DNA of 64,000 bases, taken from Actinoplanes teichomyceticus ATCC 31121. Its GTDB lineage: Bacteria; Actinomycetota; Actinomycetes; Mycobacteriales; Micromonosporaceae. The DNA is taken from assembly GCF_003711105.1 (NCBI RefSeq), contig NZ_CP023865.1:656001-720000 (forward strand), given 5' to 3'. Made by a program: the position numbers and the translations under genes. The stretch's first letter is position 1, and the number at the start of each line of letters is the position of its first letter. Under the pieces are notes generated by a model. That model was not told the DNA's origin. It did not search any database and saw only the letters and a list, made by a program, of their open reading frames with translations. Of the stretch, positions 15,557-21,176 are shown one piece after another.

Positions 15557-17074
15557 ATGAGGCGCAAGGTCTACGTGGAAGGCTCCCGTCCGGAGATCCG
15601 GGTGCCGTTCACCGAGGTGGTGCTGACCGGGGACAACCCGCCGGTCCGGCTCTACGACACGTCCGGCCCGGGCAGCGACCCCGAGGTCGGCCTGCCGCCG
15701 CTGCGGAAACCGTGGTGGGACGGGCGTACCCAGCTCGCCGCCGCGCGCGCCGGTGACATCACGCCGGAGATGGAGTTCGTGGCGGTACGCGAAGGGGTCG
15801 ACCCGGAGGTCGTCCGCGAGGAGATCGCCGCCGGCCGGGCCGTGCTGCCCGCCAACCGCAACCACCCGGAGTCCGAGCCGATGATCATCGGGTCGAAGTT
15901 CCTGGTGAAGGTCAACGCGAACATCGGCACCTCGGCGGTCACCTCGTCGGTCGCCGAGGAGGTCGAGAAGCTGACCTGGGCCACCCAGTGGGGCGCGGAC
16001 ACCGTGATGGACCTGTCCACCGGTCCGCGGATCCACGAGACCCGCGAGGCGATCGTCCGCAACTCGCCGGTGCCGATCGGCACCGTGCCGATCTACCAGG
16101 CCCTGGAGAAGGTCAACGGCGACCCGCTGAAGCTCACCTGGGAACTGTTCCGGGACACCGTGATCGAGCAGGCCGAGCAGGGCGTCGACTACATGACCAT
16201 CCACGCGGGCGTGCTGCTGGAGTACGTCCCGCTCGCCGCCGAACGCGTCACCGGCATCGTCTCCCGCGGCGGGTCGATCATGGCGGCCTGGTGTCTCGCC
16301 GAGCACCGGCAGAACTTCCTCTACACGCACTTCCGGGAACTGTGCGAGATCTTCCGGGAGTACGACATCACCTTCTCCCTCGGCGACGGCCTGCGCCCCG
16401 GCTCGATCGCCGACGCCAACGACGAGGCGCAGTTCGCCGAGCTGCGCACCCTCGGTGAGCTCACCCACATCGCCTGGGAGTACGACGTCCAGGTGATGGT
16501 CGAGGGCCCCGGCCACGTGCCGATGCACAAGATCAAGGAGAACGTGGACCTGCAGCAGGAGCTGTGCGCCGGCGCGCCGTTCTACACGCTCGGGCCGCTG
16601 GCCACCGACATCGCGCCCGCCTACGACCACATCACCTCCGCGATCGGCGCTGCCATGATCGGGATGTTCGGCACGGCGATGCTCTGCTACGTCACCCCGA
16701 AGGAGCACCTCGGCCTGCCGAACAAGGAGGACGTCAAGGCCGGGATGATCGCGTACAAGATCGCGGCGCACTCGGCCGACCTCGCCAAGGGCCACCCCGG
16801 CGCGCAGGCCTGGGACGACGCGCTGTCGCACGCACGGTTCGAGTTCCGCTGGGAGGACCAGTTCGAGCTGGCCCTCGATCCCGGGACGGCGCGGGCGTAC
16901 CACGACGAGACGCTGCCCGCGGCGCCGGCCAAGACGGCGCACTTCTGCTCGATGTGCGGGCCGAAGTTCTGCTCCATGAAGATCAGCCACGAGCTGCGGG
17001 CGGCCGGGATGAAGGCGAAGTCGGAGGAGTTCGTGGACGGCGGCGCGCGGGTCTACCTGCCCATCACGTCCTAG
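15557..17074 (+). CDS. thiC: Phosphomethylpyrimidine synthase ThiC
   Basis: ThiC is the radical-SAM-like enzyme that rearranges aminoimidazole ribotide to HMP phosphate. The 505-residue protein shows [24 protein letters not shown] sequence and the [31 protein letters not shown] core in separate segments. Near the end lies the iron-sulfur motif C-x2-C-x4-C in [18 protein letters not shown]-like GGGAGGAA precedes the ATG. Its own 93-base gap holds no second riboswitch. The stop overlaps the convergent signal-peptidase gene by 4 bases. Confidence 0.96.
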
Positions 17075-20000
17075 TCCGCGGGTCGCCGGGGCGGCGGGTT
17101 GTTGCGGGGCAGGAAATCGTAGGCCGGATCCCGCGGGGCGGCGCGAGCCAGTCGTTCGCTGCGGGCCCGGTCGGCGGCGGCCTGGTCGCGCTCGGCCTGG
17201 CGGGTGATCGCCTCCTCCAGGATCCGGTTGCGGGCGGCCAGGTCCTCGGCAGCCTGCCGTTCCGGTTCGGCGGTCTGCCGTTCCGGTTCGGCGGTGTGCC
17301 GTTCCGGTTCGGCGGTGTGCCGTTCCGGTTCGGCGGCCCCGACGCCGGTCGGCGACGGGGCCGCGGATTCGTGCTCCGCTCCGGACGTGCGGTCGGTTTC
17401 GGTGCCATGGTTGGCTTCGGGCGTGTGACTGGGTTCGGTGCCGTGGTCGGTTTCGGGCGTCTGATTGGTTTCGGTCTTGCGGCCGACCTCGGTCTCGCGG
17501 TCGGATTCCGGTGCGCGGCCGGCTTCGGGACCGCGGTCGGATTCCGGTGCGCGGCCGGCTTCGGGACCGCGGTCCGGTTCGGTGCGGGTTTCCGGTTCGG
17601 TGATGGTCGGCTTGGTCTTTCGGGGGCTTCGGGTCTTCGCCCGGGACTTCGGGACCGGCCGGGTCTCGGCCTCGGCCTGGGCTTCGGCGTGCGCCTTGGC
17701 TTCCGCCTCGGCCTGGGGCGTCCCCGTGGTCGCTGCGGCTGCCGGCTCCGCGGGGCCGGTGACGGGCTCGGCTTCGGGGGCGGCCGTCTTGCGGGCGCGA
17801 GGCTTGCGGGTCGCGGCGCGCTTGCGCGGGGTCGTGGCCGCGCCGTCCGCCGCCGGGCCGCCCTCCGGCACGGGCCCAGCCGCTTCCGGTACGGCCATGA
17901 CCGCGGCCGTGGACACTCCCGCCGGGATCACGGGCGCGGTGCTGTCGTCGGCCTCCGCCGGCTCGGGGGTGGCGGAGGTGGCGGCGAGCCGGCCGGTCGG
18001 CTGCTCGGCGGATGCTGTGGCGTCCAAGGGCTGGTCGGCCGGCCGTGTTTCGGTTGCGGTCTCGGGCTGGTCGACCGGCTGTGTCTCGGTCGTGGTCTCG
18101 GGCTGGCTGGCCGGCTGTGCCTCGGTCGTGGTCTCGGGCTGGCCGGCCGGCTGTGCCTCGGCTGCGGCCTTCGATCGGGCCTTCGTCGCGGTCTTCCGGA
18201 CGGTGGTCGGCTTGGCGGCGGCTTTGCGCCTGGTGGGCGGTTGTGATTCGGCGGTCGCCTCCTGTTCCACCTTGCCTTCGGGGGTTGCCTGTTCTTCCGT
18301 GGTGGGTGGCGGGGCTGGATGTTCCTCCGTGATGGGCGGCGGGGCTGGTTGTTCCTCCGTGATGGGTGGCGGGGCTGGTTGTTCCTCCGTGATGGGCGGC
18401 GGGGCTGGTTGCTCTTCCGTGGTGGGTGGCGGAGCGGGGTGTTCTCCCGTGGTCGGGTGCGGCGCGGGCTCGGATTCCTCCGTGGCGGTGGCCCCGGCGG
18501 GCGGTTCGGGTGCCGTGGTGCCCGGCTCCGCGGCGGCGGGAGCGGTTCCGATCCGCTCCGGCCCGCGATCTTCGGTGAGCCGGGCGAGAACATCGGCGCT
18601 CAGTTCCTGGGTCTGCTCGGGAGACGGCTGCTCACCCGGCTCCGGCTCGGTGGCCCGGTCCGGCGCCGCCATCTGCCCGGATTCCGCGGCGGCCCGATCC
18701 GGTGCGGCGGGCCGTTGGGCCTCGGCAGACCGTTGGGCCTCGCCGGACCGTTGGGCCTGGGCTGAGCGCGGGGCGTCGGCAGACCGTTGGGCCTCGGCTG
18801 GGCGCGGGGCCTCGGTGCGGTGCGGGGGTGACCCGGCGGCGGGCTGCCCGGATCGGACGTCCGGATGCTGATCAGATCCGGTCTCGGGCGGCTTGTCGGG
18901 GACGATTCCGGCGGCCTCCGGACCGCCCGCCTCCCCGGCCGGCGCCGGTCGGCCTGCGGTGCCGATGACCGAGGCGATGCCGATGGCGGCGCTCCGCCGC
19001 ATGTGCCGGGCCGGATGGGGTACGCCGGAGAGCGGCGGCCTCGCGGTGCTCGGGCGGGGCGCGACGATCCGGTACCGGTAGGTGACGCCGTCGTCGCGGA
19101 CCACGAAGTCGTCGGCGCCGTCGGGGCGGGTCCAGGTGAGGACCATCTGGCCGTACTTCTCGGCCAGCCGCACCAGCGCCGGGAACGTCGCCACGGTCAC
19201 CACCGGCTCGTCCGGCCGCCCGCCGACCGGCTCGACCGGGACGAGCAGATGACCGTACCGGCGTTCGATCTGTGCCCGGGTCATCAACGGCACATGTCGC
19301 AGCGCGGCCATCCCGACGCCGACCATCCCGGCGACGGCGGCGAGCAGCAGCCAGCCGGCGTACCTGCGGGCCACCGCGGCGGTCGTCAGGTCGTGCCCGA
19401 GCACACCGATCCGCCGGGGCTGGAGCCCGCCGCCGGAGGTCGTCGCCGTCCGGTTGACGACGAGGCTGCCCGGGCCGCCGGGCAGGGCCAGCTGGAGCTG
19501 GCTGAGCGCCAGGGACAGCTGGGGTTCGAAGGTGGCGCCGTCGGGGTGCTCCACGCGTGCGGTCACCGTGATGGTGACCGGGCCCAGATCCGAGCCGATC
19601 GCCTTGGCCGCCGCCTGCACGCGGTCGTCCATGCCGTCGAGGTCGAGCAGGACCGTGCCGGTGTAGCGGTCGGTGGTGAACGGCCGTGCCTGCGAGAGCC
19701 GCATCGTCGAATGCCAGCCCGCCCCGGACGAGAGCCGGGCGTCGACGCTGATCCTGCCGGGTGCGCCGCGGTACTGCAGTTGCAGATCGACGAGGTCGGT
19801 GAGCTTGCGGTAGATCGGGTCGGGGGAGTAGGCGACGGTGCCGTCGTACGCCGCGGACGCGCCCACCTCGGCCGAGTAGGAGAACGTCATCGACTCCCCG
19901 GCCCGCGCGCTGCTCGGAGCCGCCTCGGTGGCCGGCCTCATCCAGCCCAGGACGGCGAGGAGCGTACCGGCGACCGCGCACAGGGCGGTCACGGCGGCCA

Positions 20001-21076: not shown

Positions 21077-21097
21077 ATCGGTCGTTCCCCTGTTCGT

Positions 21098-21176
21098 CCG
21101 GTGGTAGCCCAGCCGACCCCGTGGGTCCTGCGGCTTCGCGTCCCCGGCTCGTGCCGGGTTTGCCGTTCTCGCCGAG
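21098..21176 (-). ncRNA. Candidate cyclic-di-GMP class I (GEMM) riboswitch
   Basis: On the minus strand the leader contains, in order, GGCAAACC and a short hairpin (CCGGC-ACGA-GCCGG). GGGACGCGAAGCC, a second hairpin GACCC-ACG-GGGTC and GGCTGGGCTACC follow. These match the order and spacing of the GEMM-I aptamer: GGCAAACC, tetraloop helix P2, GGACGCAAAGCC, helix P3, then a GGxUACC closing strand. The aptamer ends about 20 bases before the small secreted protein's start, so translational control is plausible. It was recognised by eye; a covariance search is needed to confirm it. Confidence 0.65.

Follow-up and report, generated by a model that had tools for sequence, protein, structure and literature searches.

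The unit described here lies in a window of 64,000 nucleotides, the whole stretch of DNA that was analysed, from Actinoplanes teichomyceticus ATCC 31121 (contig NZ_CP023865.1, positions 656,001 to 720,000). It occupies positions 21174..17071 on the reverse strand, on which all of its parts lie, and consists in order of a riboswitch aptamer of the cyclic diguanosine monophosphate (c-di-GMP)-I or GEMM-I type (21100..21174), a gene for a small exported protein (20648..21076) and a long gene for a fusion of an S26B signal peptidase, a DUF5305-like part and a tail (17071..20541; 1156 residues counted from the first ATG). An earlier note on this DNA had described these elements as a self-contained unit, and the description holds: each part lies where it had been placed, and the pair of genes is kept where the neighbouring genes differ. 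In this report, we argue that the unit is rather probably a private export module of the SipW/TasA kind, controlled by c-di-GMP and making a surface or matrix subunit.

The peptidase and the DUF5305-like part

The N-terminus of the fusion is, as judged from sequence profiles and the predicted model, a signal peptidase of the S26B (SEC11/SipW-type) class, as the earlier note had proposed. This part comprises the first membrane span and the catalytic domain (residues 1-119, 20185..20541). TIGR02228 matches all 56 aligned relatives at E<=0.001, and in this alignment H66, D82 and D88 are invariant and S29 is nearly so, which gives a Ser-His-Asp arrangement with His replacing Lys; the presumed catalytic residues are Ser29 (20455..20457) and His66 (20344..20346), with Asp88 (20278..20280) as the candidate third member and D82 likewise invariant. 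The Bacillus SipW model matches 20 of the 56. In the PDB, a profile of the 56 relatives retrieved SEC11A/C and nothing else at E<=0.01, a likeness also seen in the fold of the predicted model; the single full-length fusion sequence retrieved nothing useful there. The window fusion on its own falls under the cut-offs of both TIGR02228 (9e-12, 45.1 bits, cut-off 51.85) and Peptidase_S24 (15.5 bits, cut-off 23.3), and a PF10502 search of the genome does not single out its gene.

Behind the peptidase come a second span and a strongly basic loop (20017..20190), predicted to be cytoplasmic from the AlphaFold2 helices and the sequence, then a predicted extracytoplasmic beta domain of the DUF5305-like part (residues 205-387, 19381..19929), and a fourth span with a conserved cytoplasmic domain (residues 388-492, 19066..19380), a region matching PF17231. 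Scores for DUF5305 (PF17231) lie at or near the family cut-off: the window fusion scores 28.1 bits, just under the cut-off of 29 (32.9 bits with the neighbours in frame), and the cut-off is exceeded in three of the five relatives scanned. In the databases, relatives often go under 'DUF5305 family protein' or 'signal peptidase I', and the names in the entries seen mention neither a cognate small protein nor a riboswitch; the term DUF5305 was not found in the open-licence literature searched. That the fusion might be a sequencing artefact, a doubt raised in the earlier note, is ruled out by the join of S26B and DUF5305-like parts in one stop-free frame in 36 of 36 genomes.

Pairing with a small exported protein

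The first gene encodes a protein of 142 residues with a signal-peptide region (residues 1-28, 20993..21076) and a mature part that AlphaFold2 modelled as a beta-sandwich (residues 52-142, 20651..20923), with a predicted local distance difference test score of 81-94 per ten-residue block from residue 51. Two cysteines (C109 and C120) are conserved, as is a segment behind the signal peptide. The co-occurrence of its gene with that of the peptidase is borne out in relatives. Among 67 genomes of the genus, both genes are present in the same 36, always adjacent, and neither is present in the other 31; each genome that has the small protein has a single homologue of it. A search of 150 genomes of the family found the peptidase core in ten and the small protein in nine, and the nine coincide, with the genes adjacent; the tenth (G102) is a partial generic match, a 127-residue S26B stretch, that was not counted as a unit, and a second partial match in G188 (residues 309-493) was likewise not counted. 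The aligned core, run against named genomes, yielded 43 loci, some of them from the same genomes as other unit loci (L038, L042, L044, L054 and L056 among them), in Actinoplanes, Paractinoplanes, Planosporangium, Arthrobacter, Pseudarthrobacter, Sinomonas, Nakamurella, Quadrisphaera and several metagenome-assembled groups. A small-protein match was found at all 43 (weakest 1.3e-3, the E-values being computed over the frames of these loci), and the small gene lies directly upstream of the peptidase gene in 42; the frames overlap in L039, L075 and L076, since the longest start was taken. At L072, from an Acidimicrobiales metagenome-assembled genome, the two genes are 1.5 kb apart, and between them lies a zinc-ribbon-like open reading frame (4579-4956, forward strand), perhaps, by its resemblance, an insertion-sequence transposase. 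As for the surroundings, thiD, thiC and genes for a ribonuclease (RNase), a hypothetical protein and a kinase-like protein are each found around the unit in 13 to 15 of the 51 loci searched, all Actinoplanes, and the neighbours differ at 8 loci outside Actinoplanes, compared by eye. The pair, rather than the neighbourhood, is inherited, and the unit is an actinobacterial module that is not unique to this genome.

The two regions of the small protein are conserved to very different degrees. Over 12 species, mean pairwise identity is 83% in the signal-peptide region and 29% in the mature part. In the same species, the adjacent secreted RNase has the opposite pattern, with 54% in its N-terminal region and 87% in its mature part, the former figure being rough because the N-terminal starts are uncertain and the boundary was set at about residue 35; the 12 species are those with both genes, L042 and L044 being excluded as duplicate records of L017 and L019. 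A frozen signal peptide on a fast-changing product is the pattern expected from a private peptidase. Given the one-to-one co-occurrence and this conservation, the S26B enzyme would recognise and cut the signal peptide of its partner.

Several results, to which those on the aptamer are added below, weigh against a private matrix-export module. Of the 56 aligned peptidases, 29 are also matched by TIGR02227, the model for ordinary bacterial enzymes, and elsewhere in the A. teichomyceticus genome there are seven PF10502 rows, including three strong LepB-type matches, which could cut the signal peptide. No TasA, camelysin or SipW-cognate model matched the small protein in profile searches, so that membership of the TasA family failed at profile level, and a structure search gave no clear solved-fold match; a role as a fibre is therefore drawn by analogy only. 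More broadly, the window protein matched no Pfam or NCBIfam family at E<=1, and no NCBIfam family is common to more than three of 94 members of the small-protein set. TasA was not among the matches listed in the fold search, which points neither for nor against a TasA-like fold.

Two other explanations draw on these results. The first is that a general LepB peptidase cuts the signal peptide, the S26B-DUF5305 protein serving some other purpose or acting on other substrates; the LepB-type matches would allow this, and the small residues in the signal peptide suit general peptidases. We regard it as quite improbable, because it is at odds with the presence of both genes in 36 and of neither in 31 of 67 genomes, with a signal-peptide conservation that is inverted relative to the RNase control and with the single small-protein homologue in each genus genome that has one. 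The second, which we find unlikely but less so, is that the small protein is privately exported but does not polymerise, being a fast-evolving secreted factor for recognition or competition. The gap between 29% and 83% identity, the missing match to any fibre family and the neighbouring Actinoplanes gene for a barnase-family secreted RNase on the same strand would all suit such a factor. The two conserved cysteines and the conserved segment behind the signal peptide argue against it, as do the c-di-GMP leaders and the SipW analogy, which favour a matrix role; the RNase neighbour, moreover, is kept only in Actinoplanes among the loci compared, and the pair is spread more widely. We continue to favour a private peptidase that exports a surface or matrix subunit. 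If this is right, the substrates would form a family for study in which the signal peptide is frozen and the mature domain changes fast.

The leader aptamer

The GEMM-like aptamer that the earlier note had placed upstream is recognised by the Rfam covariance model RF01051 (c-di-GMP-I), at 44.6 bits over a gathering score of 35. With permissive filters, RF03167 (c-di-GMP-I-GGC) gave 53.1 bits, below its gathering score of 59, which leaves the aptamer outside that family. The Shine-Dalgarno sequence AGGGGA (21086..21091) lies 5-8 nucleotides past the aptamer and 9 nucleotides ahead of the ATG of the small gene. An alignment of 30 distinct aptamers has 99.1% of cells paired and double changes in 7 of 18 pairs; none of 500 shuffles reached four of the five covariation measures, the fifth, which counts further pair types, was reached by 11 of 500, and slid versions came nowhere close. 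This alignment was fitted to the structure, which leans the counts. The aptamers resemble RF01051 and RF03167 riboswitches in their core, their P2 and P3 stems and their covariation, and differ from them in that the controlled gene is one of a private export pair, the Shine-Dalgarno sequence follows close upon the aptamer and the presumed ligand-contact bases vary.

Matches to c-di-GMP-I occur in 60 of the 67 genus genomes, 59 of them over the cut-off (stricter filters), and by comparison of coordinates an aptamer lies directly ahead of the small gene in 23 of the 36 genus units; all 23 were also recovered by a purpose-built model that was itself trained on seven of them. Counted by open frame, an aptamer precedes 19 of 20 units with an open frame of at least 682 residues and no GGDEF domain, both units with a GGDEF tail and 2 of 14 shorter ones. 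The sole long unit of the first kind that has none is that of A. lutulentus (G076, L017/L042), where by eye the leader flanks and the Shine-Dalgarno sequence are kept and the aptamer was not found, an apparent loss. Of the 43 named loci, 20 have a strong aptamer, scoring 66 to 94 bits, ahead of the small gene and two others a weak one (L055, 19.8 bits; L057, 34.4 bits), scores below 15 bits being taken as chance. Twelve loci were submitted to Rfam: seven passed RF03167 and L072 passed RF01051, all eight belonging to the strong 20 and including Nakamurella, Frankiales, Acidimicrobiales and a metagenome-assembled genome labelled Mycobacterium, and L042, L046, L048 and L063 gave no riboswitch match. 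The only aptamer at L061 (Arthrobacter mobilis), strong and of the c-di-GMP-I type (7638-7720, forward strand), lies downstream of the peptidase gene; no gene of at least 90 residues clearly follows it, and it was not counted.

These data make control of the unit by c-di-GMP well supported by the aptamer, with c-di-GMP as the putative ligand, and a number of findings have to be set against it. No aptamer was found in 13 of the 36 genus units with the stricter filters (only G076 being searched with the built model as well) or in 20 of the 43 named loci with the built model; since such units exist, the switch is not essential to the unit, and the pair can live without it. When 29 leaders were folded with and without the aptamer enforced, accessibility of the Shine-Dalgarno sequence rose in 2, fell in 3 and stayed within 0.1 in 24, with no consistent direction, the place of that sequence being set roughly by a simple motif score. 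In the RF01051 search, the window aptamer has the lowest score of the 23 genus unit aptamers, and among 31 unit aptamers (23 from the genus and 8 from elsewhere) it is the sole one with CGCGAAG, the other 30 having CGCAAAG. Because of this unique G and the lowest score, the window switch may be weakened or altered, which is the chief caution on c-di-GMP control in this genome.

The variation extends beyond the window. Ahead of GCAAACC, 19 of the 31 aptamers have G, 6 have A (L015 of A. missouriensis among them) and 6 have C (L019 among them), and the two variable presumed ligand-contact sites, at 21164 and 21137 in the window, are ones that we take to be positions 20 and 47 of Vc2, both touching the ligand. 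An A at position 20 of the aptamer admits 3'3'-cyclic GMP-AMP (cGAMP). A 2017 PNAS paper on variant riboswitch classes is reportedly a source of variants of this aptamer type. It is thus conceivable, and in our estimate less unlikely than either alternative for the small protein, that the aptamers have drifted, so that some would respond to a cGAMP-type dinucleotide or to no ligand at all and the window switch is perhaps weakened or lost, a view that is compatible with the other parts of the export reading. The spread of bases ahead of GCAAACC, the lone G of the window at what we take to be position 47 and the higher score of the window aptamer for RF03167 than for RF01051 point that way; the stems kept with covariation and the 61 GGDEF matches in the A. 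teichomyceticus genome, which amount to a large c-di-GMP network, point against it. We accordingly retain c-di-GMP as the more plausible signal for the export module, and the orthologous aptamers with altered presumed contact bases before one and the same gene offer a natural series.

A role for c-di-GMP in this genome is plausible from those 61 matches together with a second c-di-GMP-I site (6632893-6632971; L034 12891-12975, reverse strand), which precedes the gene of a 985-residue Calx-beta protein. This protein has a signal-peptide-like start. At genus sites of this type, an open reading frame of 954-1043 residues follows the aptamer at 8 of 9 (the ninth, L033, was not resolved), and a Calx-beta domain is present in all three such frames scanned.

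The predicted cytoplasmic end and a proposed model for the unit

The last part of the window fusion is a low-complexity, repeat-rich tail (residues 493-1156, 17074..19065), 90% of which is P/A/E/T/K/R/S/Q/D/G and whose DNA contains tandem repeats of 18-60 bp; the open frames of the forward strand across it were taken as shadow frames and discarded. Measurements of the tail rest on 120 of 218 homologues, that is, among the matches listed: 100 of the 120 have no tail (493-551 residues), and 20 have 619-885 residues. P0017, a long protein, P0069 and P0088 could not be anchored and stand outside this measurement. Tails of more than 100 residues were measurable in 20 proteins including that of the window, of which 18 are of low complexity (the window and 17 others) and two are GGDEF domains. 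All 18 low-complexity tails carry YDFL (YDFLP at 17107..17121 in the window), at 12 to 91 residues from the end of tails that range from 127 to 665 residues. As tail length is free and YDFL is nevertheless kept, YDFL(P) is most likely a docking or partner-binding motif. A second shared sequence, the tail end DQADG(A/V)TGR of four tails, was set aside as a motif, for it falls within a 28-nucleotide overlap with thiC in L015, L016, L017 and L018; YDFL lies outside that overlap. In the window itself, the peptidase gene and thiC converge with an overlap of 4 nucleotides (17071-17074).

Two species, Actinoplanes sp. NBRC 103695 and A. solisilvae, have a GGDEF domain in place of the tail. Both proteins (P0037 and P0105) carry PF00990, with a match of 4.8e-31 to the tail of Actinoplanes sp. 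NBRC 103695 (L021). Both have EADNF at the active-site position in place of GG[D/E]EF, and RPRD, an RxxD sequence, five residues ahead of it, which we take to be I-site spacing. To judge by these residues, the domain is probably a c-di-GMP receptor or sensor rather than a cyclase. We take it to resemble the degenerate GGDEF receptors of the PopA/PelD kind in its family match, broken active site and RxxD, and to differ from them in being attached to a signal peptidase, in two Actinoplanes species. GGDEF domains work in the cytoplasm. The replacement, the four model helices (an even number of spans) and the basic loop after the second of them indicate that the tail is most likely cytoplasmic, and it appears to be lineage-specific. 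Here the earlier note is not supported: it had made the tail part of a surface scaffold, a reading that we reject on the strength of the predicted model and the GGDEF replacement, and most of the listed relatives have no tail at all.

The closest known systems are those in which a SipW-type peptidase is likewise encoded beside an exported, matrix-forming substrate, namely SipW with TasA/TapA in Bacillus subtilis, SipW-TasA-CalY in B. cereus and SipW-BsaA in Clostridium perfringens. In C. perfringens, passages of one report state that the extracellular localisation and polymerisation of BsaA need SipW (PMC7395162), and a model figure for B. cereus has SipW processing TasA, CalY and CapP (PMC13082335). 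Unlike in these systems, the peptidase here continues in one chain into a DUF5305-like double-span domain and a cytoplasmic part, no TasA model matches the substrate, there is one homologous substrate per genome, and a c-di-GMP-I aptamer is often in front. No description of the two-gene unit was found in the open-licence literature searched, and the 2017 PNAS paper on variant riboswitch classes may hold an earlier mention.

We propose the following model, in which the aptamer and its place, the class of the peptidase, the one-to-one pairing and the constraint on the signal peptide are observed, and the ligand, the direction of the switch, cleavage, polymerisation and the role of the tail are inferred. 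The leader aptamer, set against the Shine-Dalgarno sequence of the first gene, would control translation of that gene. Its product would be a small beta-sandwich protein exported through Sec, in which a SipW-type signal peptide stays fixed and the mature domain changes fast. The second gene would give a four-span membrane protein whose SEC11/SipW-like Ser-His-Asp site faces outward, and whose outward DUF5305-like beta domain may hold or hand on the cleaved product; a cytoplasmic domain would also be present. By analogy with SipW-TasA and SipW-BsaA, the product would serve as a surface or matrix subunit once c-di-GMP calls for a sessile or developmental state. In this lineage, the cytoplasmic end would have grown into the low-complexity tail with its probable partner-binding motif, and in two species the GGDEF domain would stand there instead, its active site broken and its RxxD intact, and would probably sense c-di-GMP.

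A more speculative extension, which we hold to be doubtful yet somewhat more credible than drift of the aptamers, is that c-di-GMP acts twice: the leader riboswitch would set synthesis of the pair, and in some species the GGDEF-derived domain would act on the peptidase, with the YDFL(P) tail doing so elsewhere through a partner protein. Signal peptidases generally pass for constitutive housekeeping enzymes, and SipW of B. subtilis has a second, regulatory role; two-level control, if true, would mean a signal peptidase gated by a second messenger. A peptidase that travels with one substrate, and often with an RNA switch for a second messenger, would make a compact and testable c-di-GMP output, and in two species the module includes a signal peptidase fused to a domain that resembles a c-di-GMP receptor.

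Some further features of the locus may be recorded. The peptidase gene may start ahead of its first ATG, at an ATT (20565-20563, reverse strand) that lies 24 nucleotides upstream and follows GGAG; an ATT stands at the equivalent start in L014, and an ATC at or near it in L015 and L016. The secreted barnase/RNase-like protein that served as the conservation control is encoded at 21407-21877 on the reverse strand (PF00545, 1.4e-10) and lies beside the unit in 13 of 51 loci, all Actinoplanes. On the forward strand, at 11294-11404, a thiamine pyrophosphate riboswitch lies upstream of the thiamine gene region.

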